A DNA stretch of 32,822 nt from Cryobacterium sp. (GTDB lineage Bacteria; Actinomycetota; Actinomycetes; Actinomycetales; Microbacteriaceae): contig JAHBSW010000027.1 in NCBI GenBank assembly GCA_019638935.1, positions 1 to 32,822 on the forward strand. The letters are read 5' to 3'. The notes beneath the pieces were generated by a model that was not told the DNA's origin, made no database searches, and saw only the letters and a list, made by a program, of their open reading frames with translations. Numbering within the stretch: position 1 is the stretch's first letter; every line of letters starts with the position of its first letter. This document shows positions 69-28,633 of the stretch, in pieces. A program made the position numbers and the translations under genes.

Positions 69-161
69 CGGCGAGTCCACCCAGCCCTCAATATCGATAA
101 CCTAGTTTGCTAACATGACGATGAAGTCCATGATGAATCGCTCGAAGAGGAGTTGACGACG

Positions 162-8817: not shown

Positions 8818-9576
8818 TCAGTCTGCGAGCTCGGTGATCGCCAGGTTGTCGATATCGCTTGCGCCGATCTCGCCCACGGCCGCCATGTGCTTGGTCCAGT
8901 ACGACTCGACCTCTTGTATGCGCCCCTGCTCGATGAGTTCCACCAAGTGCTCATGAGCCCTCAGATTGCGTTCGTGCTGGAGAACCAGGTCGCTCACGTC
9001 GGTCATCTTTCGAGCGGAGTGACGCTCACTGATCCGTTCCAGGGCTTCGATGACGACGGCAGCCACAGCATTTCCACTCATCTGGATCAGCTTGAGGTGG
9101 AAGTTCCATCCCTGGTACGCAAACGCATCTACGTTGCCGATCGCCGACTCCGCATCGGTGAGGAGCTTTCTGAGCTCGTCGATGTCCGACGATGTGGCGC
9201 GCTCGGCGGCGAGGCGCACCGCGGTCGGCTCCACCAGCATCCTGAATGCGTGAACATCGCCCAATGACGCGTCGCGCAACTGCAACTGGATGGCGAGACT
9301 CCGTGCGGTCACCTGAATGTCGGGCAGGTTCACGATCGGCCCATGGTGAGAGCCGCGCCGCACGGTGATGAGGCCTTGTGATTCGAGAAGTCGCAGGGCC
9401 TCTCGAAGGGTCGGTCGGGAGACCTGATACTGCTCCATGAGCGCCCCCTCGGAGTAGAGGTAGTCTCCGGGCCGCAGCTCACCGGCAAGAATACGACCAC
9501 GCAGCTCAGCGGCGATCACCTCGGCCATCTTCGGGATTCGAGGGCCACCATTGCGCTTGTGCTCGCTCATGGTCAT
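8818..9576 (-). CDS. GntR-family transcriptional regulator with FCD domain
   Basis: About 252 residues. The N-terminal winged helix includes AEVIAAELRGRILAGELRPGDYLYSEGALMEQ and the recognition helix VSRPTLREALRLLESQGLI. An all-helical FCD ligand domain follows, with FRMLVEPTAVRLAAERA and the histidines HLKLIQ and HEHLVELI that usually bind metal and a carboxylate effector. ATG 9576 is chosen because GAGG lies about 8 bases upstream; a TTG at 9633 in the same frame lacks such support. It is divergent from the BVMO operon. It is the natural candidate to bind the repeated palindromic promoter sequence at 9745-9773 and 12151-12179, probably released by an organic acid or acyl-CoA; this is inference. 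The 9577-9744 gap holds no gene. Confidence 0.93.
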   Translation of the reverse strand: MTMSEHKRNGGPRIPKMAEVIAAELRGRILAGELRPGDYLYSEGALMEQYQVSRPTLREALRLLESQGLITVRRGSHHGPIVNLPDIQVTARSLAIQLQLRDASLGDVHAFRMLVEPTAVRLAAERATSSDIDELRKLLTDAESAIGNVDAFAYQGWNFHLKLIQMSGNAVAAVVIEALERISERHSARKMTDVSDLVLQHERNLRAHEHLVELIEQGRIQEVESYWTKHMAAVGEIGASDIDNLAITELAD

Positions 9577-9744
9577 TCCACTTACCTCAGGCTTTCTCGA
9601 GTCACGTCGGTGTGCTGGGCCAAAGCTAAACAATACTAACAGGACATCGTTAACGTAGCTGGCGGCCGAGCAATACTCGCGGTCAGAAGCCCGTGATGCA
9701 GATTCGCGCCGCCGCCGGCATTCTCGGCGCTCATCCAGAGCTTC

Positions 9745-9773
9745 TTGACCTAGTCAGCTTAGTCATCTATGCT
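9745..9773 (+). promoter_or_regulatory. Sigma70-type promoter with embedded palindromic operator (BVMO operon)
   Basis: A -35 hexamer TTGACC (9745-9750) and a -10 hexamer TATGCT (9768-9773) are 17 bases apart. The promoter body contains two palindromes. TGAC-CTA-GTCA (9746-9756) overlaps the -35. AGCTTAG-TCAT-CTATGCT (9756-9773) has one mismatch and covers the spacer and -10. The block matches 25 of 29 bases of the promoter at 12151-12179. It lies 62 bases upstream of the BVMO start. A repressor bound here would block RNA polymerase; the divergent GntR protein is the likely binder (inference). Confidence 0.8.
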
Positions 9774-9835
9774 GAGGCCACGGATCGTCAGAGTCGACGA
9801 CGCTCCACTATCGAGTAGGCAAGGATTCGCAAGGG

Positions 9836-11623
9836 ATGAGCTCGACCGCCACCACGCACGAAGAAATCGACCTCGACGCCATTCGCGACCTGTACCGGGT
9901 CGAACGCGACAAGCGGGTGCGTTCTGACGGCCTGGGGCAGTATGCGGATGCGGAAGAGGGGGACTTCGCCTACTACGCAGAAGACCCGTACACCCCCCGC
10001 GAGGAGCGGGAGAGCCTCACCGAAACGGTCGACGTTCTCGTCGTCGGCGGCGGATTCGGCGGACTCCTGACCGGTGCTCGCCTGCGGCAGGCGGGGGTTC
10101 AGAGCCTGCGCATCCTCGACCGCGCCGGAGACTTCGGCGGCACGTGGTACTGGAACCGATACCCCGGCGCGCAGTGCGATATCGAGTCGTATCTCTATCT
10201 GCCACTTCTCGAGCAGATGGGATTCATGCCCTCGGAGAAGTACGTTCGTCAGCCCGAGATCCACGAGTACACCCAGAAGCTCGCTCGGCACTTCAGGCTT
10301 TACGAGGCGGCCCTGTTCCAGACGGTCGTGACCGACGCGACCTGGCTCGAGTCCGAGAACCGCTGGCGAATCGAAACCGACCGTGGCGACGTCATCGACG
10401 CTCGATTCGTCGTGATGGCGAACGGATTGCTGTCACGACCAAGGCTGCCCGGCATCCCTGGCATAACGGACTTCAAGGGGCACACATTCCACTCCAGTCG
10501 GTGGGACTACGGATACACCGGCGGAACGACGCTGGGAGGTCTGGACAAGCTCGGTGACAAGAAGGTCGGAATCATCGGCACGGGTGCGACCGCCGTTCAG
10601 ATCGTGCCGCACCTCGCTCAGGGCGCCGAGCACCTCTACGTCTTTCAGCGCACTCCCTCGGTGATCTCTTTCCGTGGAAACAGGCCAACAGACCCGAGCT
10701 GGGCTGAGTCGCTCAAACCGGGGTGGCAGGAAGAGCGTCTCGACAACTTCATGTCGATCGCGAGCGGGGGTGCTCCCGAAGAGGACCTCGTCGACGACGG
10801 CTGGACGACCGCCTTCAAGGCACTGCCCAGTCTCATCAGTGACAGCAAGATCTCCCCCGAAGAAGCGGAGAAGCGGGACTACTTCGAGATGGAGCGGATG
10901 CGGGAGCGAATCGCCTCCGTCGTCAGCGACTCCGAGACCGCGGCGAAGCTGAAGCCCTACTACCGTTTCTTCTGCAAGCGGCCGTGCTTCCACGACGAGT
11001 ACCTCCCCACTTTCAACCGGGACAACGTGAGTCTGATCGACACGGATGGCCGCGGCGTCGAGCGCATCACTGAGACGGGAGTGGTGGTCGGAGGCGTCGA
11101 GTACGAGCTCGACTGCCTCGTCTTCGCAACGGGGTTCGAGTCTGCTGAGGTCTCGCCCCGTCAGGCAGGATTCGATCCCATCGGCCGAGGTGGGCTGGCC
11201 CTTTCTCAGAAGTGGAACACCGAGGTGCGCACTCTGTTCGGCCTGCAGACGAACGGATTCCCCAACCTGTTCTTCCTGGGCATCACCCAGGGCACGCTGT
11301 GCCCCAACTTCAGCAATATGCTCAACGAGCAGTCGAAGCAGGTCGCCTTCGTCATCGAGCAGTGCATCAGTGGCGAGCATGTCGTCGTTGAGCCGACACT
11401 CGAGGGTGAGGCGGATTGGGTGGCGACGATGGAGGCGGCAAATGCCGAGGACTCGGAGTTCTGGGATACCTGCACACCGAGCCGCTACAACGACGACGGC
11501 GATTCGACGAGGAAGCTTCCCAATCGCTACCAGACCCAGTACGGGGGCGGGCCGAAGGAGTTCTACGAGATCCTGGCAGCATGGCGCGCCGAAGGGACAG
11601 GCAAGGGACTGACGTTCCGCTAG
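9836..11623 (+). CDS. Type I Baeyer-Villiger flavin monooxygenase
   Basis: 595 residues, close to cyclic-ketone and steroid monooxygenases. The FAD-binding motif VLVVGGGFGGLLTGARL starts near residue 63 and is followed by the conserved GTWYWNRYPGAQCD. The BVMO fingerprint FxGxxxHxxxW[P/D] appears as FKGHTFHSSRWD at residues 213-224. The NADPH-binding IIGTGATAVQIVPHLA comes next. It should insert oxygen next to a ketone to give an ester or lactone, using FAD, NADPH and O2. AAGGA at 9821-9825 supports the ATG at 9836. It is the first gene after the palindromic promoter at 9745 and is probably co-transcribed with the deazaflavin-type gene downstream. The ~60-residue N-terminal extension is common in larger BVMOs. 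The substrate is unknown. Confidence 0.94.
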   Translation: MSSTATTHEEIDLDAIRDLYRVERDKRVRSDGLGQYADAEEGDFAYYAEDPYTPREERESLTETVDVLVVGGGFGGLLTGARLRQAGVQSLRILDRAGDFGGTWYWNRYPGAQCDIESYLYLPLLEQMGFMPSEKYVRQPEIHEYTQKLARHFRLYEAALFQTVVTDATWLESENRWRIETDRGDVIDARFVVMANGLLSRPRLPGIPGITDFKGHTFHSSRWDYGYTGGTTLGGLDKLGDKKVGIIGTGATAVQIVPHLAQGAEHLYVFQRTPSVISFRGNRPTDPSWAESLKPGWQEERLDNFMSIASGGAPEEDLVDDGWTTAFKALPSLISDSKISPEEAEKRDYFEMERMRERIASVVSDSETAAKLKPYYRFFCKRPCFHDEYLPTFNRDNVSLIDTDGRGVERITETGVVVGGVEYELDCLVFATGFESAEVSPRQAGFDPIGRGGLALSQKWNTEVRTLFGLQTNGFPNLFFLGITQGTLCPNFSNMLNEQSKQVAFVIEQCISGEHVVVEPTLEGEADWVATMEAANAEDSEFWDTCTPSRYNDDGDSTRKLPNRYQTQYGGGPKEFYEILAAWRAEGTGKGLTFR

Positions 11624-11644
11624 GTCTCGCCTGGTTGCGGGAAG

Positions 11645-12154
11645 GTGAATCGGGTGCGGTTCGACGAGAATTATCTGCCCTCTCCACGAGAGTTCGTTCG
11701 GCGTCAGGTGGAGCTCTACGAACGCAGCGACGGCACGGAGGGGAACACGGGTGACGGTGGTTACCCCGTGGTGATCATCTCGTGTCGCGGAGCGAAGACG
11801 GGTGCGGTTCGAAAGTTTCCCGTCATCCGTGTGGAGCACGATGGCGACTATGTGGCAGTCGCCTCGTTCGCCGGTCGGGACAGCAACCCCGTCTGGTACC
11901 AGAACCTGATCGCCACACCGCTGGTGGACGTGCAAGATGGCGCCGTCAAGACGCGCTGCTCCGTGCGCGAGCTGTCAGGAAGGGAGCGGGACTCCTGGTG
12001 GAGCAGGGCGGTGGAAGCGTACCCGCCGTATGCCGAGTTCCAGTCCGCGACCGAGCGCGTGATTCCCGTGCTCCTGCTGACCCCGGTCCAGCGTGAGCGC
12101 CATGACCCCATTGGCACACCAGGGGTCCCAGCCCGTGGAATCGCTCATCCTTGA
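11645..12154 (+). CDS. Deazaflavin (F420)-type nitroreductase-family protein
   Basis: 169 residues of the DUF385/Ddn family, split beta-barrel proteins that bind F420 or related flavins. Visible signatures are RGAKTGAVRKFPVIRVEHDG, the glycine-poor loop VASFAGRDSNPVWYQNL, and IATPLVDVQDG. Members use reduced F420 to reduce activated double bonds, quinones or nitro groups. The GTG at 11645 lies 21 bases after the BVMO stop. GGGAAGG at 11639-11645 is better spaced for the GTG at 11654, so the protein may be three residues shorter. Its last codon and stop overlap the -35 box of the next promoter. In this setting it may reduce an enone intermediate; that is inference, and F420 synthesis genes are not in the window. 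Confidence 0.85.
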   Translation: MNRVRFDENYLPSPREFVRRQVELYERSDGTEGNTGDGGYPVVIISCRGAKTGAVRKFPVIRVEHDGDYVAVASFAGRDSNPVWYQNLIATPLVDVQDGAVKTRCSVRELSGRERDSWWSRAVEAYPPYAEFQSATERVIPVLLLTPVQRERHDPIGTPGVPARGIAHP

Positions 12155-12179
12155 CTTGGTCAGCATAGTAATCTATGCT
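12151..12179 (+). promoter_or_regulatory. Sigma70-type promoter with embedded palindromic operator (TRAP operon)
   Basis: TTGACT (12151-12156) and TATGCT (12174-12179) are spaced by 17 bases. The palindrome TGAC-TTG-GTCA is perfect (12152-12162). The palindrome AGCATAG-TAAT-CTATGCT is also perfect (12162-12179) and covers the -10. The -35 overlaps the stop codon of the upstream gene (TGA, 12152-12154), so the promoter is built into the gene end. It is the second copy of the element at 9745-9773, with the same orientation and geometry, and stands 53 bases before dctP. This marks the BVMO and TRAP units as one regulon. Confidence 0.82.
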
Positions 12180-12232
12180 AGAGGGGATCTAATCGGTCGT
12201 CCTGCGTTACGTATCTACAAGGAAGTAGCCAA

Positions 12233-13342
12233 ATGAAGCTGAAGTCAGTTGCGGCGTTCGCGATCAGCGGCGCACTCGCAGTAAGTCTCGTTGCCTGCTC
12301 GGCAGAGCCAGGCGAAACCCCTGATGAAGTCCAGTCCGTCAAGATTCGGTGGGCCAGCGCACTCAGCGGTGGGCAGAATCATCTCGTGACCGACTGGTTC
12401 GCGACCGAAGTCGAAGAGAAGTCCGACGGAGTCGCTTCCTTCGATCGCCTCTACGGGGGAGCTCTGCTCACATCACCCGACATCCTGCCCGGCATTCGCG
12501 ACGGACGAGCAGACGGCGGTGGTATCCCGCTGGCGTACTACGCGGGGATCATGCCGCTCGTCGCGATCACCTCGGTCCCCTTCATCACGTCAAATGGGCG
12601 CGCCATCATGGAGACGCTCAATGAACTGTACGAGACGAATGAAGCGTTCCGTGCCGAGTTCGAGGCGCAGAACCTTCATCCGGTCGGCTTCACACCCGCG
12701 ATCATGGCGGGAGGTTCGAAAGAGCCCATCACCAGCCTCAGCGACTTCGAGGGGCTCAACATCCGAGCCGGTGGCTTCGCCGCCAATGTGCTTGCCCACC
12801 TCGGTGCTCGCCCGGTGGCGCTGCCCGCTGAAGAAGTGTACGAAGCCCTCGAGCGCGGCACCGTCAATGCCTATGCCAGCTTCGCACTCGACACCGCACC
12901 GAGCCTCTCGGTACAAGAAGTTGCTCCTCACCTGTTCAACCTCGGAATCGGCAACTTCTCGGTTCAGGTCGACGCGATCAACCTGAAGACCTGGAACGCA
13001 CTTCCGGAGAGCGTTCAGAAACTCATGACGGAGGTCGCCGCTGCCAAGCCGCAGTACACGATGGAGCTCATCGCCAACGGCACCGATGCGGCCTGCACGG
13101 CCTACGCGGACGCCGGGGGAGAGGTCTTCACCGTCTCGAGTGGTGACCTTCAGCGGCTCACCAACGAGCTTCGCCCATCGCTCCTCGACGCGTGGCTCGA
13201 CGGGGCCGTCAACGCCGGTGTCGACCGTGCCGTCGCAGAAGACTTCCGCGACGAGTACCTAGCGGCCATCGAGAGAAACGAGGCCGCGTTCCCCGACGAG
13301 GACCCGCTCAAGCGCTGCTCGGAGCTGGCTGGCGCGCGCTAG
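12233..13342 (+). CDS. dctP: TRAP transporter substrate-binding lipoprotein DctP
   Basis: 369 residues. The N-terminus MKLKSVAAFAISGALAVSLV is a lipoprotein signal peptide ending in the lipobox LVAC, so Cys22 should be lipidated and anchor the protein outside the membrane. The mature part is a DctP-type periplasmic fold: WASALSGGQNHLVTDWFATEVEEKSDG near the start, and the hinge region SLSDFEGLNIRAGGFAANVLAHLGARPVA with the Arg that usually clamps a carboxylate. It should capture an organic acid for the DctQM permease. The gene follows the palindromic promoter and is separated from dctQ by a strong hairpin, which would allow extra binding protein to be made. Confidence 0.92.
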   Translation: MKLKSVAAFAISGALAVSLVACSAEPGETPDEVQSVKIRWASALSGGQNHLVTDWFATEVEEKSDGVASFDRLYGGALLTSPDILPGIRDGRADGGGIPLAYYAGIMPLVAITSVPFITSNGRAIMETLNELYETNEAFRAEFEAQNLHPVGFTPAIMAGGSKEPITSLSDFEGLNIRAGGFAANVLAHLGARPVALPAEEVYEALERGTVNAYASFALDTAPSLSVQEVAPHLFNLGIGNFSVQVDAINLKTWNALPESVQKLMTEVAAAKPQYTMELIANGTDAACTAYADAGGEVFTVSSGDLQRLTNELRPSLLDAWLDGAVNAGVDRAVAEDFRDEYLAAIERNEAAFPDEDPLKRCSELAGAR

Positions 13343-13349
13343 AAGCGCA

Positions 13350-13389
13350 ATTGCTGGTGCAGTCGGCGGCGTCCGACTGCACCAGCAAT
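13350..13389 (+). terminator. Long perfect stem-loop between dctP and dctQ
   Basis: A perfect 17-bp inverted repeat. The arms are 13350-13366 (ATTGCTGGTGCAGTCGG) and 13373-13389, with a 6-base loop CGGCGT. It starts eight bases after the dctP stop and 62 bases before dctQ. No run of T follows, so it is more likely a partial terminator or an RNA-stabilising hairpin than a full terminator. Such a structure would raise binding-protein output over the membrane subunits. A possible -10 (TACACT, 13400-13405) without a good -35 lies just downstream. Confidence 0.8.
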
Positions 13390-13451
13390 ACCTCTCGGCT
13401 ACACTCGCGCTGGACTACGGCGCACACAACAACTCGCAAGGAGGCGGGGAC

Positions 13452-14009
13452 GTGACACTTCTCGACGAACCCACTACGGAAGAGACACCCTCGACAGGCA
13501 TATTCCGACTTGAGCGTCGCATCACGACTGTCCTGACCGTCATCGTCTCCGCGGGAGTCATCGCGCTGATGCTGCTCTGCATCGCCGACATCGTCCTGCG
13601 GAACATCGGCTCGCCTATCAATCTCAACAGTGTCGAGATCATCGACGTGGCCATCGTTCCCCTGGCTCTCCTCGGACTGCTCCCCGCGCTCGTCTCACGG
13701 GTTCACGTCGAGACGGGCCTACTCGTAGATCGGCTTTCGCCCAAGACGCGGTCGCTCATCGTTGCGATCGCGCTTGCGATCTGCGTTCCTTTTCTCGTCT
13801 GGGCAGTGATCCAGACCACCGGCGCCGCAATTCAGTCGACGGGCATCCGCGAAGCGCGCTACGGACTCGCGCAGGTACCGATCTGGCCGTCGAAGATCTC
13901 GATACCGATCGGCCTCGGACTGTTCACCATCGGCCTCGCGCTGCGTGCCGGATTCGACTTCAAGCGATTCTTCGAGCTCTCGAAGGCAGAAAAGAGCGGT
14001 GAAAAGTGA
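13452..14009 (+). CDS. dctQ: TRAP transporter small membrane subunit DctQ
   Basis: 185 residues with four hydrophobic segments, roughly residues 27-53, 61-80, 98-122 and 145-165, as expected for the DctQ subunit. Features include RRITTVLTVIVSAGVIALMLL, the loop LRNIGSPINLNSVEIIDV and the later HVETGLLVDRLSP, typical of this family. The GTG start at 13452 has a full AAGGAGG ribosome site at 13438-13444. Its stop overlaps the dctM start (GTGA, 14006-14009), so the two membrane subunits are translationally coupled. It pairs with DctM in the cytoplasmic membrane to drive sodium- or proton-coupled uptake. Confidence 0.88.
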   Translation: MTLLDEPTTEETPSTGIFRLERRITTVLTVIVSAGVIALMLLCIADIVLRNIGSPINLNSVEIIDVAIVPLALLGLLPALVSRVHVETGLLVDRLSPKTRSLIVAIALAICVPFLVWAVIQTTGAAIQSTGIREARYGLAQVPIWPSKISIPIGLGLFTIGLALRAGFDFKRFFELSKAEKSGEK

Positions 14010-15404
14010 CCATCGAAGTCGCCCTTATCGTTGCGACCGTCGTATTGCTCGCGCTCATCGTCATGCGCGCGCCCGTCGCCCTGGGCATTCTCGTCGGCGC
14101 ATCCGTCGGAATCATCCTGTACGACGGGTTCGACCACTGGACCTCGCTGCTGCAATCCGTCTTCTACAGCAGCTCTGCCAAGTACCTCCTGTTCGTCATA
14201 CCCATGTACGTGCTGCTGGGAAGCATCGTGTCGAACACGGACATAGGAGTGCAGGTCTACCGCGTCGTCAATAAGGCGGTGGGCCGACTGCCCGGCGGGC
14301 TCGGAGCGACGGCGGTGGTCGCAACCGCCATGTTCAGCGGGATCTCCGGCTCGAGCGCAGCCGACATCACCGCATTCGGCCGCGTATCGATCCGAGAGAT
14401 GACCCGACTGGGCTATCCCAGGGACTACGCCACCGCCATTGTCGCCGCGGCCGGAACCTTCGCGGTGCTCATCCCGCCCAATCTCGCCTTGGTCATCTAT
14501 GCCGTGCTCGCCGAGGTCAGTGTCGGTGCGATGATCGTCGCCGGACTCGTCCCGGGCATCATCTCCGTCGTGGTTCTCGGCATCTTCGTACTGCTGCGGG
14601 CTCCGCACCACATTCGCAAGCCCGAACAGCTTGGAGCCCAACTGGCTCAGGCGGCCGAGAATCGAAGGAACGCCACCGAGCCGCTTCCCACTCTGAAGGA
14701 AGTCACTCAGGCGATCGACTACCAGAAGGGCGACTGGCTCTCCGTCGTATATGTCGTCATCCTCGGAGGCGTCGTCGTCGGTGGTCTCTACGGTGGGTTC
14801 TTCACTCCGACCGAGGCGGGTGCCGTAGCCGCCCTGGTCGCGTGTTTCCTCATGTTCACCGCGTTGCGCAAAGGGACGAGCACCCGGCTTCGCACCGTAT
14901 TCGGACGCTCGCTTCGAGACACCGTGGACATCACGAGCATGATCTTCCTGCTGTTCATCGGCGGATCGGTCTTCGCCTACTTCCTCGCCTCGGGGATGAT
15001 TCCTCCGCAACTGACCGCCTGGGCAGCGGGACTGGACATTCCGCCGCTGCTGCTCGTCGCCTTCCTGCTCATCATCCTGCTTCCACTAGGTGCGGTGCTC
15101 GATGGAATGTCGATCATGCTGCTGACCGTGCCGTCGCCTGGCGCCGATGGTCGTGGGCCTCGGCTTCGACGGGATCTGGTTTGGCGGCATCCCTGGTCGT
15201 CAAACTCGTGGAGATCGGATACTCATCACCCCACCCGTTGGGATGAACGTGTTCATCGCCGCAGGGTTGGGACGCGTCGACGCCGAGAAGGTTTACCGAA
15301 AGATCTGGCCCTTCATCGTGCTGGATCTCGCCGTGACTGCGCTGTTCTTCCTCGTTCCCGAAACCATCCTGTGGTTCCCGAGGCTGTTCGGGTTCGGCGT
15401 CTGA
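14006..15404 (+). pseudogene. dctM: TRAP transporter large permease DctM, three frame changes near the 3' end
   Basis: The frame from the GTG at 14006 encodes a normal polytopic DctM up to MSIMLLTVP. Family-like sequence then continues through two other frames. Removing one C at 15137-15138 restores SLAPMVVGLGFDGIWFGG. Removing one C at 15191-15193 restores ILVVKLVEIG. Adding one base, probably C, at 15222-15223 restores YLITPPVGMNVFIAAGL and the frame that stops at 15402-15404. The repaired protein would be about 465 aa, the family norm. As written, translation leaves the family sequence near residue 376 and stops at 15428-15430. The conserved sequence between the shifts suggests a very recent lesion or base-calling errors in short C runs. 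If real, the transporter is non-functional. Confidence 0.85.
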
Positions 15405-15506
15405 GCAACCCAAGCAGGGACAAGGAATAGGGTCTCGCGTGGGACTGCGAGGCACCCGAGCACGAGCGGCAAGGACGTTCCCGTTGGCGAAGATTCGGAC
15501 ACAACC

Positions 15507-16463
15507 ATGAGCAAGGTATTCGGGCCGTCGAGCGTCACCCTGGGTCTGCATCCCATCGCGGTAGCGGTTCCCTCGACCGCCTCCGCTCTTGTCGAAGGAG
15601 TGATCGAACAGGCTGTAGCTGCGGAGCGGTCAGGATTCGATGGCGCCACGGTCAGCGAGCACCATCGAGGGCTACCCGGCTATCTGCCACAGCCGCTGCT
15701 GGTCAGCAACTGGGTTCTCGCCGAGACTTCGCGGATCTGGTCCGGGCCCAACCCGACGCTGTTGACGTTGCGGAATGCGGCGCATCTGGCCGAGGAACTC
15801 GCATGGACTGCCGCAAGGTTTCCGGGACGCGTGGGGGCGACGGTTGCCGCGGGATACAACCCCGACGATTTTGCCGCTGTTGGGCTTGGCACCGATGACA
15901 TCGCCCGACGTTTTGCCGAGGAGGTGACGCATCTTGCGCACTCCTTGACCGCAGGTGGGCCACTGCAGGGAGACGAGGCGGTCGAAGAGTGGATTCGCAC
16001 GCCCGGTCCGCTCGCCAGCGCAGCCAACAGCACTACAGCCGCGGTTCGCGCCGCAAATGCGGGTATGGGCATCAGCCTCATCGGTGCTGACAATGTCTCT
16101 GAGCGAACACAGCGAGTTCTCAACGCCTACCGGGGCGCGGGTGGCACAGGCCCGGTGATGTTGACGAGGCGGGCCTTCATCGGCACTCCGCCCGCGAAGG
16201 CGGTTGAAGCGCTTCTGGATACCTATCGCACGTCGCCGAGATCCAACGGCGCCCTCGGGGACTTCGTGTCGGGGGAGCCCGAAGCCGTCGCTGAAGCTCT
16301 TGTCGTAGAGCTGGACTCGCTCGGTCCCGACGGCAGTCTGGTTCCGCACCTGAATCTTCCGGGAGTCGAACTGTCGCAAGCGCTCGAGCAGATCGTGCGT
16401 TTCGGAGAGGAAGTCATCCCTCTCATAAAGAGAGAGCGTGGAGTCGCAGGGGCCTCTAGCTGA
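15507..16463 (+). CDS. Luciferase-like (LLM class) flavin-dependent oxidoreductase
   Basis: 318 residues of the bacterial-luciferase TIM-barrel superfamily. Signatures are VIEQAVAAERSGFDGATVSEHHRG near the start, with the flavin-pocket SEHH, then LAEELAWTAARFPGRVGATVAAGYNPDDF and late VAEALVVELDSLGPDGSLV. Members use FMNH2 or F420 and include type II Baeyer-Villiger and other monooxygenases. The gene follows dctM by 102 bases with only a weak ribosome site before the ATG at 15507. It ends one base before the convergent thiolase gene. Beside a type I BVMO, a second oxygenating flavoenzyme could act on a later ketone; this is inference. The exact subclass cannot be set from motifs alone. Confidence 0.85.
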   Translation: MSKVFGPSSVTLGLHPIAVAVPSTASALVEGVIEQAVAAERSGFDGATVSEHHRGLPGYLPQPLLVSNWVLAETSRIWSGPNPTLLTLRNAAHLAEELAWTAARFPGRVGATVAAGYNPDDFAAVGLGTDDIARRFAEEVTHLAHSLTAGGPLQGDEAVEEWIRTPGPLASAANSTTAAVRAANAGMGISLIGADNVSERTQRVLNAYRGAGGTGPVMLTRRAFIGTPPAKAVEALLDTYRTSPRSNGALGDFVSGEPEAVAEALVVELDSLGPDGSLVPHLNLPGVELSQALEQIVRFGEEVIPLIKRERGVAGASS

Positions 16464-21928: not shown

Positions 21929-22696
21929 TCAGATCAGGCGGTTGCTGGCGAGGAACTCGGCCAGTTGGGTAGCGGCGGTGCCGTCGTCGACGATCTTGAC
22001 CCCGGCTGTGCGTGCGGGGCGCTCGGCGACGGAGACGACAGTCGAACGTGCGCCGGAGTCGCCCACACCGAGTTCGGCCAGAGTGACTGTCGCGAGCGGC
22101 TTCTTCTTCGCGGTCATGATGCCCTTGAAGTTGGGAAAGCGACCCTCGGGTGCGCGTTCGGTGGCGGAGACCACCGCGGGCAGGTCGGCACGGGCTGTGA
22201 CGGTGCCGTACTCGGTGGCGCGGACGCCCGATACCGATGTCCCGTCGACCGTGAGCTCGCCGATCGAGGTGAGGGCGGCGACCCCGAGCGTCTCGGCGAG
22301 ACTCGACGCGAGCACTCCGCCACGTCCGTCGGTCGACTCGTTGCCGGCGACGACGAGATCGAAGCCCTCGCTCGCCACGGCCGCACCGATCACCGCGGTG
22401 GTGCGAGCCACGTCCGCTCCCGCGAGCGAGTCGTCGAGAACGTGGATCGCGCGATCCGCTCCCATTGCAAGCGCTTTTCGCAGTGCGTCGGTCGCCGAGC
22501 TCGGACCCATCGACAGTGCGACGACCTCGACCGATTTATCGGCATCCTTCTGCTGAAGCGCCGCCTCGAGCGCACGCTCGTTGATCTCATCGATGATCGG
22601 CTCCGATGCGTCGCGATCGAGCAAGCCCGTGGTGGTGTCGAGCTTGCGTTCGCCGAAGGTATCCGGCACTTGTTTGACGAGAACGACGATCTTCAC
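21929..22696 (-). CDS. etfB: Electron transfer flavoprotein beta subunit
   Basis: 255 residues. The opening MKIVVLVKQVPDTFGERKLD, EINERALEAALQQKD, ALAMGADRAIHVLDD and the AMP-site segment VVAGNESTDGRGGVLASSLAE are characteristic. The ETF beta recognition loop that docks onto dehydrogenases corresponds to PNFKGIMTAKKKPL near residue 190. The start is GTG 22696 with GGAG six bases before it. It lies 36 bases after the tetR stop and is probably on the same transcript. Confidence 0.96.
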   Translation of the reverse strand: MKIVVLVKQVPDTFGERKLDTTTGLLDRDASEPIIDEINERALEAALQQKDADKSVEVVALSMGPSSATDALRKALAMGADRAIHVLDDSLAGADVARTTAVIGAAVASEGFDLVVAGNESTDGRGGVLASSLAETLGVAALTSIGELTVDGTSVSGVRATEYGTVTARADLPAVVSATERAPEGRFPNFKGIMTAKKKPLATVTLAELGVGDSGARSTVVSVAERPARTAGVKIVDDGTAATQLAEFLASNRLI

Positions 22697-22732: not shown

Positions 22733-23323
22733 TTACGGCTCGCGCGATGCGCTCACTCCCGCGACGATGAGATTCGCGAGGGCGAGGTAGGCGGCGGAGT
22801 CATCGAGGCTGGTGGCGTCTTCGATCTCGCCGCGGTGAATGGCCTCCATGACATGTCCGGCGACGGCACCCATGAAGACGGCTTCGGTTCTGCTCGTCTC
22901 GGGCACGGCCTCGAGCACCAGTTCGTGGAGTCTCTCGGCGGCGATCTGGGTGTTGCTCTGGTAGAGCTCGCGCGTGGGCGCGAACATGTCGAGGTCTTTG
23001 AAGAAGGTCTCGGATGCCGGTGCGAGCTCCTCCGAGATGGCGACGAGGTAGGCGCGAATGCGGTCGCTTCCCGGTGGAACGTCGGCGATGCGCTCCTCGA
23101 TGCGACGAGCTGCCCGGCGGAAGAACTTGCGTACAACGGCGACGATGATCTGCTCTTTGCTGTCGGCGACCGAGTAGAGGGTCGTCTTCGAGCACTTCAG
23201 CTCGGCGGCGAGCTCACCGATGCTCGTGTCGAAGAACCCATTGGCGAGAAAGATGTCGATGAGTCGTGCGATGAGGTCATCGCGTCGCGCTTCGCGTGCT
23301 CGGGAGATCGCCGTTACTGCCAT
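22733..23323 (-). CDS. TetR-family transcriptional regulator
   Basis: About 196 residues. The N-terminal helix-turn-helix runs RDDLIARLIDIFLANGFFDTS then IGELAAELKCSKTTLYSVADSKEQI, a classic TetR DNA-binding unit. The remaining helical domain would bind the effector, likely a pathway acyl-CoA. ATG 23323 is the chosen start; further upstream the frame has no family sequence. There is no ribosome site before this ATG. A TACTGT -10-like hexamer ends seven bases upstream of it, so the mRNA may be leaderless. The start codon touches a perfect operator palindrome, so autoregulation is expected. It heads the etf/beta-oxidation operon and is divergent from the acyl-CoA dehydrogenase gene. Confidence 0.93.
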   Translation of the reverse strand: MAVTAISRAREARRDDLIARLIDIFLANGFFDTSIGELAAELKCSKTTLYSVADSKEQIIVAVVRKFFRRAARRIEERIADVPPGSDRIRAYLVAISEELAPASETFFKDLDMFAPTRELYQSNTQIAAERLHELVLEAVPETSRTEAVFMGAVAGHVMEAIHRGEIEDATSLDDSAAYLALANLIVAGVSASREP

Positions 23324-23336
23324 ACTGTGCACAGTA
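23323..23336. promoter_or_regulatory. Perfect 14-bp palindrome, likely TetR operator 1
   Basis: TACTGTGCACAGTA is a perfect palindrome that includes the first base of the tetR start codon. On the minus strand it contains the candidate -10 TACTGT for a leaderless tetR transcript. Binding here would shut off tetR and the operon behind it. Confidence 0.75.
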
Positions 23337-24641: not shown

Positions 24642-25577
24642 CTAGCCGATGCGCTCGAGCGCGTCGACGACGAGGCTCCAGAACTTCTCGCGGTCGAGCT
24701 TCGTGGCGGCGTGGGTGGTGCACGAGTCGGGCGCGGGGGAGCGGAAGTCGGCGACGGTCATCCCGAGCGTCAGCGAGCCGGTGAGCTCGATGTCGAGCGG
24801 CACGCGAACCACCTCCATGACCGTGGGGTCGATGACGAGAGCGACGGCGCACGGGTCGTGCACGGGTGGATGCTCGAAGCCCTGCGCCGCGAGATAGGTG
24901 GTACCGAAGAAGTCCAGCAGCTCGACCACGAACTGCGCGGGGGCGGTGCCGATCGCCGCGATGCGCTCCACGACATCCGGCGTCGCGAGCGCCTGGTGGG
25001 TGAGGTCGAGGCCCACCATGGTGAGCTTCCACGGCTCGTTGAAGACGATGTGGGCGGCCTCGGGGTCGATGACGATGTTGAACTCGGCGGCGGCGCTCCA
25101 GTTGCCTCCGTGGTAGCCGCCGCCCATGAGCACCACCTCGCGCACGCGCTCGACGATGCGGGGCTCCTTGCGCACCGCGAGGGCGATGTTCGTGAGGGCG
25201 CCTGTCGGAACGAGCGTGATCTCGCCCGGCTCGTGGGCCATGATCGTGTCGATGATGAGGTCGACCGCGTGGCGCGGGTCGGCCTCGATGTCGGGGTCGG
25301 GCAGCACGGGGCCGTCGAGACCCGAATCTCCGTGGATCGACTCGGCGACCTCGGCGATGCGCACGAGCGGCCTGGTCGCACCCGCGGCGAAGGGCACGCC
25401 CGTGATGCCGGCAACGGTGGCGATGGCGAGGGCGTTGCGTGTGACCTTCTCCAGGGTCTGGTTGCCGTGCACCGTCGTGACCGCGAGCAGCTCGATGTCG
25501 GGGTTGCCGTGCGCGAGCAGGATCGCGATCGCGTCGTCGTGGCCGGGGTCGCAGTCGAGGATGATCTTTCGAGGCAT
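24642..25577 (-). CDS. Inosine-uridine-preferring nucleoside hydrolase
   Basis: 311 residues. The calcium-binding N-terminal signature is ILDCDPGHDDAIA, with Asp8, Asp10, Asp14 and Asp15. The ribose-contact segment is AEFNIVIDPEAAHIVF, and the catalytic His-Asp pair is in PPVHDPCAVALV. It hydrolyses the N-glycosidic bond of ribonucleosides to base plus ribose. AGGA lies about seven bases upstream of the ATG at 25577. It is divergent from the SAHH-like/IclR/adenosine deaminase operon, sharing a 39-base control region with a long palindrome. Together with adenosine deaminase it would take adenosine to inosine and then hypoxanthine plus ribose. Confidence 0.94.
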   Translation of the reverse strand: MPRKIILDCDPGHDDAIAILLAHGNPDIELLAVTTVHGNQTLEKVTRNALAIATVAGITGVPFAAGATRPLVRIAEVAESIHGDSGLDGPVLPDPDIEADPRHAVDLIIDTIMAHEPGEITLVPTGALTNIALAVRKEPRIVERVREVVLMGGGYHGGNWSAAAEFNIVIDPEAAHIVFNEPWKLTMVGLDLTHQALATPDVVERIAAIGTAPAQFVVELLDFFGTTYLAAQGFEHPPVHDPCAVALVIDPTVMEVVRVPLDIELTGSLTLGMTVADFRSPAPDSCTTHAATKLDREKFWSLVVDALERIG

Positions 25578-25585
25578 GGCAGTAT

Positions 25586-25612
25586 CCTATATGAAAGTCA
25601 GATTCATATAGG
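25586..25612. promoter_or_regulatory. Long palindrome in divergent promoter, likely IclR operator
   Basis: Perfect 10-bp arms CCTATATGAA (25586-25595) and TTCATATAGG (25603-25612) flank a 7-base spacer AGTCAGA. It fills most of the 39-base gap between the nucleoside hydrolase start (minus) and the SAHH-like start (plus). Both promoters must overlap it. The IclR protein encoded in the plus-strand operon is the likely binder. The AT-rich arms stand out from the GC-rich surroundings. Confidence 0.75.
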
Positions 25613-25616
25613 TAAC

Positions 25617-26810
25617 ATGGGCATCATGACGAACAAGACCGAACTGGCCGAACGAGGCCGCCGCCGCATCGAATGGATCCGCTCCCGGATGCCGTTGCTC
25701 GCCCACGCACGGCAGCAGTTCGCCGAGTCCACCCCCTTTTCCGGGCACCGGATCGGCATGTCGCTGCACCTCGAACCCAAGACCGCTGTGCTGCTCGAGA
25801 CGCTCGCCGCGGGCGGCGCCGAGATCGTGGCGACGGGCAACCACGGGTCGACACAGGATGACGTGGTCGCGTACCTGCGCGGCGAGGGCATGACGGTGTT
25901 CGGCTCGCGCGACGACTCGCTCGACGCGCACCACGCCAACGTGTCGGCCGTGCTCGACGCCGGCCCCGACATCCTGCTCGACAACGGCGCGGACCTTGCC
26001 GCCGGAGTCGTCGCGCGCGGCAGTGCGGCGAGCGTCATCGGGGGAACCGAGGAGACGACATCCGGTGGTCTTCGCCTGCGGGGTGAGCTCGGGGGTCGTG
26101 TGACGTTCCCCATGATCGTCATCAACGACAGCCTGCTCAAGGCGATCGGCGAGAATCGACACGCGGTGGGGCAGTCGGTCGTCGAGAGCTTCATGCGCAT
26201 CACGAACCTCATGGTGCCCGGTCGACGCTTCGTCGTCGCGGGCTACGGCTGGTGCGGCCGCGGTGTGGCCCAGTACCTTCGCGCGCTCGGCGGCAAGGTC
26301 GCCGTGGTCGAGGTCGATGAACTCAAGGCCTTCGAGGCCGCTCTCGACGGCTACCGCGTCGACCGCCTCGAGGGCCTCGCCGACTGGGGCGAGGTCTTCA
26401 TCACCGCCACCGGTCAGCCCGACGTCATCACGGCGCAGCACTTCGGGCTGCTGCGAGACGGAGCGGTGCTCGCGAACTGCGGCCACTTTCCGTGGGAGAT
26501 CGACGTGGCCGGTCTCAGGGCTGCCGCGTCGAACGTGCACGCTCTCGATGACGCGATCGACCGGATCGAGTTCGCCGATGGCCGCCACGTGATCCTGCTC
26601 GCCGACGGGCGAATGATGAACCTTGCCGGTCGCGAGCCGAAGGGCAACTCGCTCGAGTCGATGGACCTCGGGTTTCTGCTCCAATCGCTCTCGCTCGAGC
26701 GCGTCGCAACGGGGGCGAGCGAGCTGCCGCACGGCGCGCAGCCGGTTCCCGACGACATCAACCGGCTCATCGCCACGCGCATGCTCGCGGCCATGGGGGC
26801 GAATCGCTGA
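25617..26810 (+). CDS. S-adenosylhomocysteinase-like NAD-binding protein (divergent)
   Basis: 397 residues with the SAHH fold order: His51 in SLHLEPKTAVLLETL, GSTQDDVVAYL, GGTEETTSGG, NDSLLK with the catalytic-type Lys175, and the NAD motif VVAGYGWCGRGVAQYL. Several residues differ from true SAHH. The DDGGD motif is LDNGAD at 121-126. The Asp four residues after the Lys is Glu179. The Cys of the GCRES region is absent. The C-terminal Lys-Tyr motif is not visible. It may hydrolyse S-adenosyl- or S-inosylhomocysteine or another 5'-substituted nucleoside. ATG 25617 has AGG four bases upstream; ATG 25626 is also possible. It overlaps the IclR start by one base. Confidence 0.8.
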   Translation: MGIMTNKTELAERGRRRIEWIRSRMPLLAHARQQFAESTPFSGHRIGMSLHLEPKTAVLLETLAAGGAEIVATGNHGSTQDDVVAYLRGEGMTVFGSRDDSLDAHHANVSAVLDAGPDILLDNGADLAAGVVARGSAASVIGGTEETTSGGLRLRGELGGRVTFPMIVINDSLLKAIGENRHAVGQSVVESFMRITNLMVPGRRFVVAGYGWCGRGVAQYLRALGGKVAVVEVDELKAFEAALDGYRVDRLEGLADWGEVFITATGQPDVITAQHFGLLRDGAVLANCGHFPWEIDVAGLRAAASNVHALDDAIDRIEFADGRHVILLADGRMMNLAGREPKGNSLESMDLGFLLQSLSLERVATGASELPHGAQPVPDDINRLIATRMLAAMGANR

Positions 26811-27502
26811 TGGCCGCGTCCGGCCCCGACTACGCGGTACCGGCGCTCGACAAGGCCCTCGACGTGCTCGAACTGCTCGCCGAGCAGAGCGGCGGGCTCA
26901 CCCAGAGCGAGATCGCCGACGGGGTCTCGCGCACGCCCAGCCAGATCTTTCGCGTGCTGCAGCGCCTGGAGCGACGTGGCTGGATCGTGCGCGATCGTCA
27001 GTCGGGGCTGTATGTGCTGTCGACGCGAATGCTCGATCTCGCGCATCGGCATCCGCCACTCCGTGGGCTCATCGTCGTCGCGCTCGCCCCGATGCGCGAG
27101 CTCGCCGAGGAGGTCTCGCAGTCGTGCAACCTGAGCGTGCTCGATTCCGAACGGGTCCGCGTCATCGCACAGGTCGAGAGTCCCGCCGACTTCGGCTTTC
27201 GGGTGCGTGTCGGGGCCGAGTTCCCGCTGTCCACACCAGCGGGGCGGATGCTCGCGCAGGGTTCCGCGGACCGCGACGGCTTCGATGGCTTCCTGCGTCA
27301 GGACGACGCGGTGCAACCCGGGATCACCGACCTCGTCGTGCCCATCCTGTCGGCGGAGGGCGGCATTGTCGCCGCACTCACCGTGCCGTACGTGGCCACG
27401 ACCTTCAGTGAGCGCGACGTCGACTCGGTGCTGCACAGACTCCGGCAGGCGGGTGAGGACATCTCCTCGCGGCTGCAAACCTCCTCGGGTGCCGCGCGGT
27501 AG
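26810..27502 (+). CDS. IclR-family transcriptional regulator
   Basis: 230 residues. The N-terminal winged helix is ALDVLELLAEQSGGLTQSEIADGV then RTPSQIFRVLQRLERRGWI. The C-terminal effector domain has the family phrases PLRGLIVVALAPMRELAEEVSQ, FRVRVGAEFPLSTPAGRMLA, and late IVAALTVPYV. Its ATG shares one base with the upstream stop (TGATG). It sits between the SAHH-like and adenosine deaminase genes, so a nucleoside or its breakdown product is the probable effector. It likely binds the 25586-25612 palindrome and controls both directions; this is inference. Confidence 0.93.
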   Translation: MAASGPDYAVPALDKALDVLELLAEQSGGLTQSEIADGVSRTPSQIFRVLQRLERRGWIVRDRQSGLYVLSTRMLDLAHRHPPLRGLIVVALAPMRELAEEVSQSCNLSVLDSERVRVIAQVESPADFGFRVRVGAEFPLSTPAGRMLAQGSADRDGFDGFLRQDDAVQPGITDLVVPILSAEGGIVAALTVPYVATTFSERDVDSVLHRLRQAGEDISSRLQTSSGAAR

Positions 27503-27511
27503 ATTCGACGC

Positions 27512-28633
27512 ATGAACACGGCGCAGCACGACTACCTCATTCCCGGCGGCGGCGCGAGCATCACAGCTCTGCCGAAAGTGTCTCTGCACGACCACCTCGA
27601 CGGTGGCCTGCGCCCTCAGACGATCATCGAGCTCGCCGACGAGATCGCGCTCGATCTGCCGGCGACGAGTGCGAACGCGCTGGGTGACTGGTTCGCCGAG
27701 AGCTCCAACTCGGGATCGCTCGTCGAGTATCTCAAGACCTTCGACGTGACCACGGGCGTCATGCAGACCCGCGGGGGACTCGAGCGCGTGGCCCGGGAGT
27801 TCGTTCAGGACCTGCACGCCGACGGAGTGGTCTACGGCGAGATCCGCTGGGCACCCGAGCAGCACCTCACCCGGGGCCTCTCACTCGACGAGGCGGTCGA
27901 GGCCGTTCAAGACGGCATCGACGCCGGCATCGACGATGTCACCGACGCGGGCGGACGCATCCAGGTCGGGCAGCTCGTGAGCGCCATGCGCCACACCGAC
28001 CGCGCTCTCGAGATCGCCGAACTCGCCGTGCGTCACCGCCACAACGGCGTCGTGGGCTTCGACATCGCAGGCCCCGAAGACGGTTTTCCACCGAGCCGCA
28101 TCCGCGCTGCGTTCGACTACCTCGCCGAGCACTGCTTTCCGGCGACGGTGCACGCCGGCGAAGCGGCGGGCCTCGACAGCATCCGCAGCGCGCTCATCGA
28201 CGGTCGTGCGCTGCGCCTCGGGCACGGTGTTCGACTGGCGGAGGACCTCTCACTCGATGACGGCGACGGCGACAACCGCTTCGTCGAACTCGGCGAGCTC
28301 GCGCAGTGGGTGCGCGACCGCGAGATCGCACTCGAGACGAGTCCCTCGTCGAACCTGCAGACCGGGGCGATCGCACAGTGGGGCGACCAGCTCGGCGATC
28401 ACCCCTTCGACGTCTTCTACCAGCTGGGCTTTCGAGTGACGGTCAACCCCGACAACCGCCTCATGAGCGGCACCACCCTGAGTCGCGAACTGAGTCTGCT
28501 CTGCGACACCTTCGGCTACTCGCTCGGCGACCTCGAGGTGTTCCAGCTCAACGCCGCCGATGCGAGCTTCCTCTCGCTCGACGAGCGTGCCGATCTCGCC
28601 GAGTACATCAGCGCCGAGTTCGCACGAGCCTAG
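27512..28633 (+). CDS. add: Adenosine deaminase
   Basis: 373 residues, full length. The zinc ligands His26 and His28 are in LHDHLDGG. His and the catalytic Glu are in VHAGEAAG, and a further His is in LGHGVRL. The zinc-binding Asp is in VTVNPDNRLMSGTTLSRE. The second Asp of the mammalian DDP motif is Asn here, as is usual in the actinobacterial enzymes I recall. It converts adenosine (or deoxyadenosine) to inosine in the cytoplasm. It starts nine bases after the IclR stop with no clear ribosome site. Some family members act on other amino-nucleosides, so the exact substrate should follow its SAHH-like and nucleoside hydrolase neighbours. Confidence 0.93.
   Translation: MNTAQHDYLIPGGGASITALPKVSLHDHLDGGLRPQTIIELADEIALDLPATSANALGDWFAESSNSGSLVEYLKTFDVTTGVMQTRGGLERVAREFVQDLHADGVVYGEIRWAPEQHLTRGLSLDEAVEAVQDGIDAGIDDVTDAGGRIQVGQLVSAMRHTDRALEIAELAVRHRHNGVVGFDIAGPEDGFPPSRIRAAFDYLAEHCFPATVHAGEAAGLDSIRSALIDGRALRLGHGVRLAEDLSLDDGDGDNRFVELGELAQWVRDREIALETSPSSNLQTGAIAQWGDQLGDHPFDVFYQLGFRVTVNPDNRLMSGTTLSRELSLLCDTFGYSLGDLEVFQLNAADASFLSLDERADLAEYISAEFARA

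Follow-up and report, generated by a model that had tools for sequence, protein, structure and literature searches.

A head-to-tail repeat shared by two core promoters as the likely operator of a GntR/FCD regulator at an oxygenase and uptake locus of Cryobacterium sp.

Two promoters in a stretch of 32,822 nucleotides of Cryobacterium sp. DNA (the window, by which the whole stretch that was analysed is meant) carry the same head-to-tail repeat of period 9, TRGTNA-N3-TRGTNA, placed mostly within the spacer between the -35 and -10 boxes. The comparison of these sequences gives good support for one regulator that links the operon of a Baeyer-Villiger-type flavin monooxygenase (BVMO) and an F420-type reductase with a TRAP uptake operon, and this regulator is probably the GntR/FCD protein that is encoded divergently from the first of them. 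It is fairly likely that this protein is a repressor of the FadR subfamily with a NanR-like direct-repeat operator within both core promoters. Such a repressor–operator system is of a known kind, and the form of the operator is uncommon.

The proposed repressor (8818..9570, minus strand, 250 residues) has the domain composition of the FadR subfamily, a GntR helix-turn-helix (PF00392, 3.9e-18) combined with an FCD domain (PF07729, 7e-18). On the plus strand it is followed by the BVMO gene (9836..11623), the F420/deazaflavin-type reductase gene (11645..12154; PF04075, TIGR00026) and the genes of the TRAP binding protein DctP (12233..13342), the small permease DctQ (13452..14009) and the large permease DctM (14006..15430), as assigned with Pfam and NCBIfam. 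A luciferase-like oxidoreductase gene (15507..16463, plus strand) probably closes the TRAP operon, as judged from the spacing. At the other end of the window a cytochrome P450 gene (153..1370, plus strand; Pfam p450, 3.2e-25) precedes a ferredoxin reductase gene (1588-2880), and two CoA-ligase-type genes, a hydroxyacid-type dehydrogenase gene and an amidohydrolase gene lie between the latter and the GntR/FCD gene. After the TRAP genes there is a minus-strand block of thiolase, SDR, enoyl-CoA hydratase and ETF genes, and then a TetR-like gene. Sialic acid genes were not seen in the window with Pfam and NCBIfam.

The BVMO sequence holds the stretch FKGHTFHSSRWD, of the FxGxxxHxxxW[PD] type, which we take to be the Baeyer-Villiger fingerprint. 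Its best NCBIfam model is that of a pentalenolactone-type enzyme (741 bits, with a cutoff of 1100) and 5mq6 is its top match in the PDB, so that its substrate may plausibly be a cyclic, terpenoid-like ketone. Relatives of the BVMO have identities of 50-56% (80 loci kept of 590 confirmed), and among the 60 rows listed of the 102 loci scanned no BVMO locus has a GntR match and one has a weak DctM match. DctP is matched at E<=1e-40 in 2 of 396 genomes of the phylum, the genome itself and one other at 35% identity.

Two other features of the window concern its distal part. The perfect palindrome TACTGTGCACAGTA (23323-23336), a candidate TetR operator of the beta-oxidation block, lies in the gap that separates the TetR-like gene (from 22733 on the minus strand) from an acyl-CoA dehydrogenase gene (plus strand, 23391). 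In the region 24711-28633 an ORF of 699 residues is predicted, in which the Pfam matches to S-adenosylhomocysteine hydrolase span residues 310-639 only; it is followed by genes of an IclR-type regulator and an adenosine deaminase.

The two promoter blocks, 9745..9773 and 12151..12179 (both plus strand), are identical at 25 of 29 bases, as originally predicted, and besides the same pair offset by one base there is no other direct pair of 29-mers in the window with at least 25 identities. Each block matches the sigma-70 consensus at 9 of 12 positions, with TTGACC-N17-TATGCT at 62 bases from the BVMO start and TTGACT-N17-TATGCT at 53 bases from the DctP start, and these are the only sigma-70-like promoters within 9400-12400 (shuffle mean 0.4). 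When up to 3 mismatches are allowed, the combined 29-base pattern matches twice in the window and never in 100 dinucleotide shuffles, and in the complete assembly (2.41 Mb, 75 contigs) its 2 matches are again only these blocks.

The likeness of the two blocks could also be explained if one promoter had arisen from the other by recent duplication, in which case the matching spacer would reflect history and not selection by a regulator. This is a very unlikely explanation, although the 9-mer CGCTCATCC occurs upstream of both blocks, at differing distances and with weak significance (39/1000 and 24/1000 shuffles for 60 and 40 bases), and GAGG is found a short way after both. The likeness ends at about 35 bases and the flanks beyond are not clearly alike, the alignment of the 60 bases upstream being little above shuffles (39/1000) and that of the 60 bases downstream being at shuffle level (320/1000); moreover, the repeat recurs at promoters of other genes in a second genome, described below.

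Within the blocks, the original prediction recognised nested palindromes, the first covering the -35 box and the second the -10 box. TGAC-N3-GTCA is indeed present with 4/4 pairing in both, one of its arms being the -35 box itself; the second, AGC(A/T)TAG-N4-CTATGCT, pairs at 7/7 positions in copy 2 and at only 6/7 in copy 1. The same bases hold the direct repeat, which had been overlooked, as TAGTCA-GCT-TAGTCA at 9751..9765 (proposed operator 1) and TGGTCA-GCA-TAGTAA at 12157..12171 (proposed operator 2), both on the plus strand, each consisting of two units, with TAGTCA, TGGTCA and TAGTAA as half-sites. The pattern TRGTNANNNTRGTNA matches at exactly these two places in the window (shuffle mean 0.00).

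That the regulator reads the palindromes is unlikely, and what speaks for it are their strong pairing in both window copies and the circumstance that 3 of the 4 differences between the copies fall in the palindrome spacers (P = 0.034, post hoc), together with the mostly palindromic operators of the FadR subfamily as described in PMC4494728. All four differences also spare the fixed bases of RGTNA-N4-RGTNA when the sequences are compared. The GT-N2/3-AC core of the subfamily is missing from both palindromes: palindromic TKGT/ACMA boxes with GT and AC 2 or 3 bases apart are not found there, the canonical palindrome TNGTNNNACNA has a single match in the window, at 22670, and none at either promoter, and none of the nine window matches of TNGTNNACNA falls at either promoter. 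The two readings are told apart only by a homologous locus.

This locus is found in genome G1064, one of 2 among 398 genomes of the family that match the regulator at E<=1e-28, the other being the genome itself. Its homologue is 58% identical and is the only close GntR/FCD homologue found; it is divergent from a P450/ferredoxin reductase operon and lies in a cluster of P450, beta-oxidation and uptake genes. The SDR of this locus is 71% identical to the SDR of the window, and the G1064 P450 is only a distant relative of the window P450 (77 identities in 299 aligned columns). Close relatives of the regulator are rare in the genomes searched, in sets of family, order, class and genus that overlap. 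In the order the regulator is matched in 1 of 327 genomes, its own (E<=1e-42), in the class in 48 of 394 including its own (E<=1e-38), the other matches listed being at 33-43% identity, and in the genus of G1064 in 2 of 13 (E<=1e-25), namely G1064 and one at 36%; its best match in seven genomes of its own genus reaches only 1.6e-12. Plasmid relatives are at most 37% identical among the ten matches listed, with one further record in the 60-80% band, and the four that were inspected have CoA-pathway genes close by. As a separate observation, the cluster 8818-15430 may have been acquired horizontally: there is no close GntR relative in the seven genomes of the same genus, and for DctP a single moderate relative turned up among the 396 genomes of the phylum.

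In the G1064 cluster the repeat recurs at promoters. TAGTTA-TCT-CAGTTA lies between the GntR and P450 genes, in the own divergent promoter of the homologue, and TAGTGC-TCT-TAGTAA lies at an uptake promoter, before the gene of an ABC-type binding protein. A three-unit array with periods 8 and 9, TAGTGT-CA-TAGTGT-TCA-TAGTCA, is found between the SDR and enoyl-CoA hydratase genes, TAGTAT-ACC-TAGTCA between the aldo-keto reductase and glyoxalase-like genes, and a degenerate site, TATTGT-TCT-TAGTAA, between the SDR and acyl-CoA dehydrogenase genes. The six G1064 sites do not keep the palindromes: in TGAC-N3-GTCA just 1-2 of 4 positions pair, where 1 is expected, and in the second palindrome 2-5 of 7 do, where 1.75 is expected; the palindromic pattern with at most 3 mismatches has 3 matches in G1064 and none on the contig of the GntR gene. 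In 2 of the 6 sites (20054, 26124) the GT core is missing from the first half-site. The shared switch sequence is hence best read as a head-to-tail repeat, and the palindromes find no support as the recognised element, although, given how strong they are in the window copies, a mixed operator of repeat and palindromes is conceivable. The proposal of one regulator for both promoters, with BVMO/reductase and TRAP genes as its regulon, gains from the similar sites at the divergent and uptake promoters of the homologue; its palindromic part gains no such support.

A matrix built solely from the two 20-mers of the window was scanned over the GntR contig of G1064 (55 kb), in its 22 intergenic stretches, for which the SDR and GntR starts had been placed manually at ATGs and the stretches extended by 10 bases. 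Six sites in 5 of the 22 stretches score at least 13, with a permuted mean of 0.25, and none of 2000 column-permuted matrices equals this. Among pairs of TAGT in the intergenic stretches (distances 3-30, three orientations), only the direct arrangement at distance 9 is seen at least twice (3 against 0.05, 0/300 shuffles), and it is again at the top for [TC]AGT (4 against 0.30, 0/300); with the core [TA][AT]GTNA no arrangement is seen twice in these stretches. For L110, the fourth-best matrix score is reached by 0/200 permuted matrices and the best score by 22/200. Single matrix hits are no higher than the shuffle maxima (the largest being 15.60), and the highest score of the GntR contig, at 44973, falls within a gene. 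With automatic gene calling the intergenic excess is not significant, either with the first caller (2 of the top 6 against 1.15, 321/1000) or with the second (4 against 1.76, 87/1000). A test of promoter location that gave 0/500 was discounted, the promoter list having been made after the hits were known. When a matrix is made from three G1064 sites, the window operators rank first and second and the P450 upstream region third; this is partly circular, the sites having been chosen with the window matrix, and one of at least 60 shuffle maxima reached 19.53.

The relaxed direct repeat TRGTNNNNHTAGTMA, the spacer form of which was fixed after two G1064 sites were known, occurs at 4 places in the whole G1064 genome, 3 of them on the 55-kb GntR contig, with site 49755 being new. 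The backward reading of the pattern matches 8 times in G1064 and not at all in the window's own genome; what is unusual in G1064 is thus not the number of matches but their concentration on one contig. In the own genome TRGTNNNNHTAGTMA also matches at 4 places, both operators, one on contig C12 where a long ORF ends, overlapping it, and one on C23, inside a minus-strand ORF according to the ORF list; neither of the two extra places is clearly a pathway promoter. The place on C23, TGGTGCTCTTAGTCA (L215 1501-1515, G000:C23:86732), is a perfect match to the relaxed pattern, lies within or close to the start of this ORF and could be due to chance or be another target. Of the other patterns, AGCNTAGNNNNCTANGCT with at most 1 mismatch finds only both operator places in the own genome (backward control 10 + 10), and TRGTNANNWTAGTNATCT with at most 2 mismatches finds four extra places, each with 2 mismatches (backward control 1 + 2). 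Across the 394 genomes of the class, the long pattern with 2 mismatches has no matches beyond those in the own genome and a single place that looks like chance. The motif does not occur before many unrelated genes, the long pattern finding only both blocks in the own genome, and this agrees with the original prediction. As a means of revealing more pathway genes, the 29-base pattern and AGCNTAGNNNNCTANGCT add nothing in the own genome, the relaxed form adds the two places named above, of which neither is clearly a pathway promoter, and the P450 upstream region is a weak candidate.

Upstream of 63 distant homologues there is an excess of direct repeats (6 against 0.93) as well as of canonical palindromes (6 against 0.45), and none of TGAC-N3-GTCA (1 against 0.32) or TAG-N4-CTA (1 against 0.71), which is a further point against the nested palindromes. 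In distance scans of these regions, the best direct distance is 9 for AGTN[AT] (4 against 0.51) and 18 for RGTNA (7 against 0.81), the latter being composed of unlike sites; with the loose core RGTN[AT], period 9 is seen 9 times against 3.77 (3/60 shuffles) and period 18 is seen 9 times against 3.30 (0/60). These scans are only suggestive. The core CTTAGTNA is present in 5 of 64 homologue upstream regions against 0.30, a count that is not independent since the core was spotted by eye in the same set. Counts of gapped palindromes and words upstream of GntR homologues (29 homologues and the window; then, counting the window, 65 non-redundant of 90) were set aside, since most of the words they returned were GC-rich and resembled coding sequence. 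One group of GntR homologues (L124, L126, L137 and L138) has its own near-palindrome upstream, CTATNATCTATNNGATAG, in 3 of the 4, degraded in L137.

The best PDB hit of the regulator is NanR (3.9e-15), and NanR is also its best NCBIfam hit, below the cutoff (119.6 against 260 bits). NanR is a GntR/FCD protein with a direct-repeat operator, (GGTATA)3 (PMC8012715, PMC4494728), and in the account of Suvorova et al. it is the direct-repeat exception to the subfamily rule of TKGT/ACMA palindromes (PMC4494728). Its dimers bind the repeats cooperatively, a single repeat being poorly bound and at least two being required, and the cooperativity is given by an N-terminal extension of 32 residues (PMC8012715). 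In the upstream region of nanA of E. coli K-12, GGTATA is found at offsets 63, 72 and 80, hence with periods 9 and 8, as compared with 8 and 9 in the G1064 array and 9 in the window pairs; the head-to-tail arrangement is common to all, as is a regulator gene that adjoins uptake and catabolism genes. Unlike in NanR, the half-site is TRGTNA and not GGTATA, each window operator has two units and not three, and the operators lie between -35 and -10, whereas that of NanR is described as located downstream of the polymerase-binding site (PMC8012715). The regulator also differs from NanR in that its residue 14 aligns with NanR residue 31, leaving no room for the extension, in that it falls under the NanR family cutoff, and in that no sialic acid genes were seen in the window. 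The gene arrangement resembles the FadR, LldR, PdhR and GlcC divergons, in which FCD regulators are divergent from catabolic operons and have separate sites near the regulated operons (PMC4494728), but their TKGT-N3-ACMA (or N2) palindromes are absent at both window promoters. No report of a TAGTNA repeat operator was found in the literature searched.

A regulator encoded elsewhere that reads both promoters, the neighbouring GntR protein controlling something else, is the least likely of the alternatives, for even with TetR-like and IclR-type regulators also encoded in the window, the repeat is present on the contig that carries the GntR homologue, also at the homologue's own divergent promoter, and fits the direct-repeat mode of NanR, the best PDB hit of the GntR protein.

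With the GntR/FCD protein as the regulator, each block would be a sigma-70-type promoter that contains one operator of this protein. We infer that the protein binds both operators and represses; as in E. coli NanR, taken as the model, its dimers would occupy neighbouring repeats. Occupied operators would keep RNA polymerase off both promoters; occupancy should have this effect because both operators are located between -35 and -10. A pathway metabolite, perhaps an acid or lactone derived from a cyclic, terpenoid-like ketone, would bind the FCD domain and release the repressor, with joint induction of the TRAP importer and of the BVMO and F420-type reductase as the outcome. The P450 promoter is a weaker candidate for a third target. 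The region 94..122 (minus strand), upstream of the P450 gene, has TCGTCA, TAGCAA and AGGTTA at period 9, the middle unit being without GT, and it ranks third in the window with the matrix from all sites, with a score reached by 12/2000 shuffles of the region.

It is an even chance that the regulator represents an actinobacterial FCD lineage outside the NanR family, which uses tandem TRGTNA repeats of 9 bases in place of the palindrome of the subfamily, does so without the N-terminal extension of NanR, and jointly switches the genes for oxygenation and uptake of cyclic substrates. The comparison also cautions against calling palindromes from two sites, as the shared bases suit both readings. 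A further direct-repeat case without the N-terminal extension of NanR would raise the question of how the dimers cooperate. For a group of catabolic regulators that has been little studied, the direct repeat provides an operator that can be tested, and it would tie uptake to the early oxidation steps.
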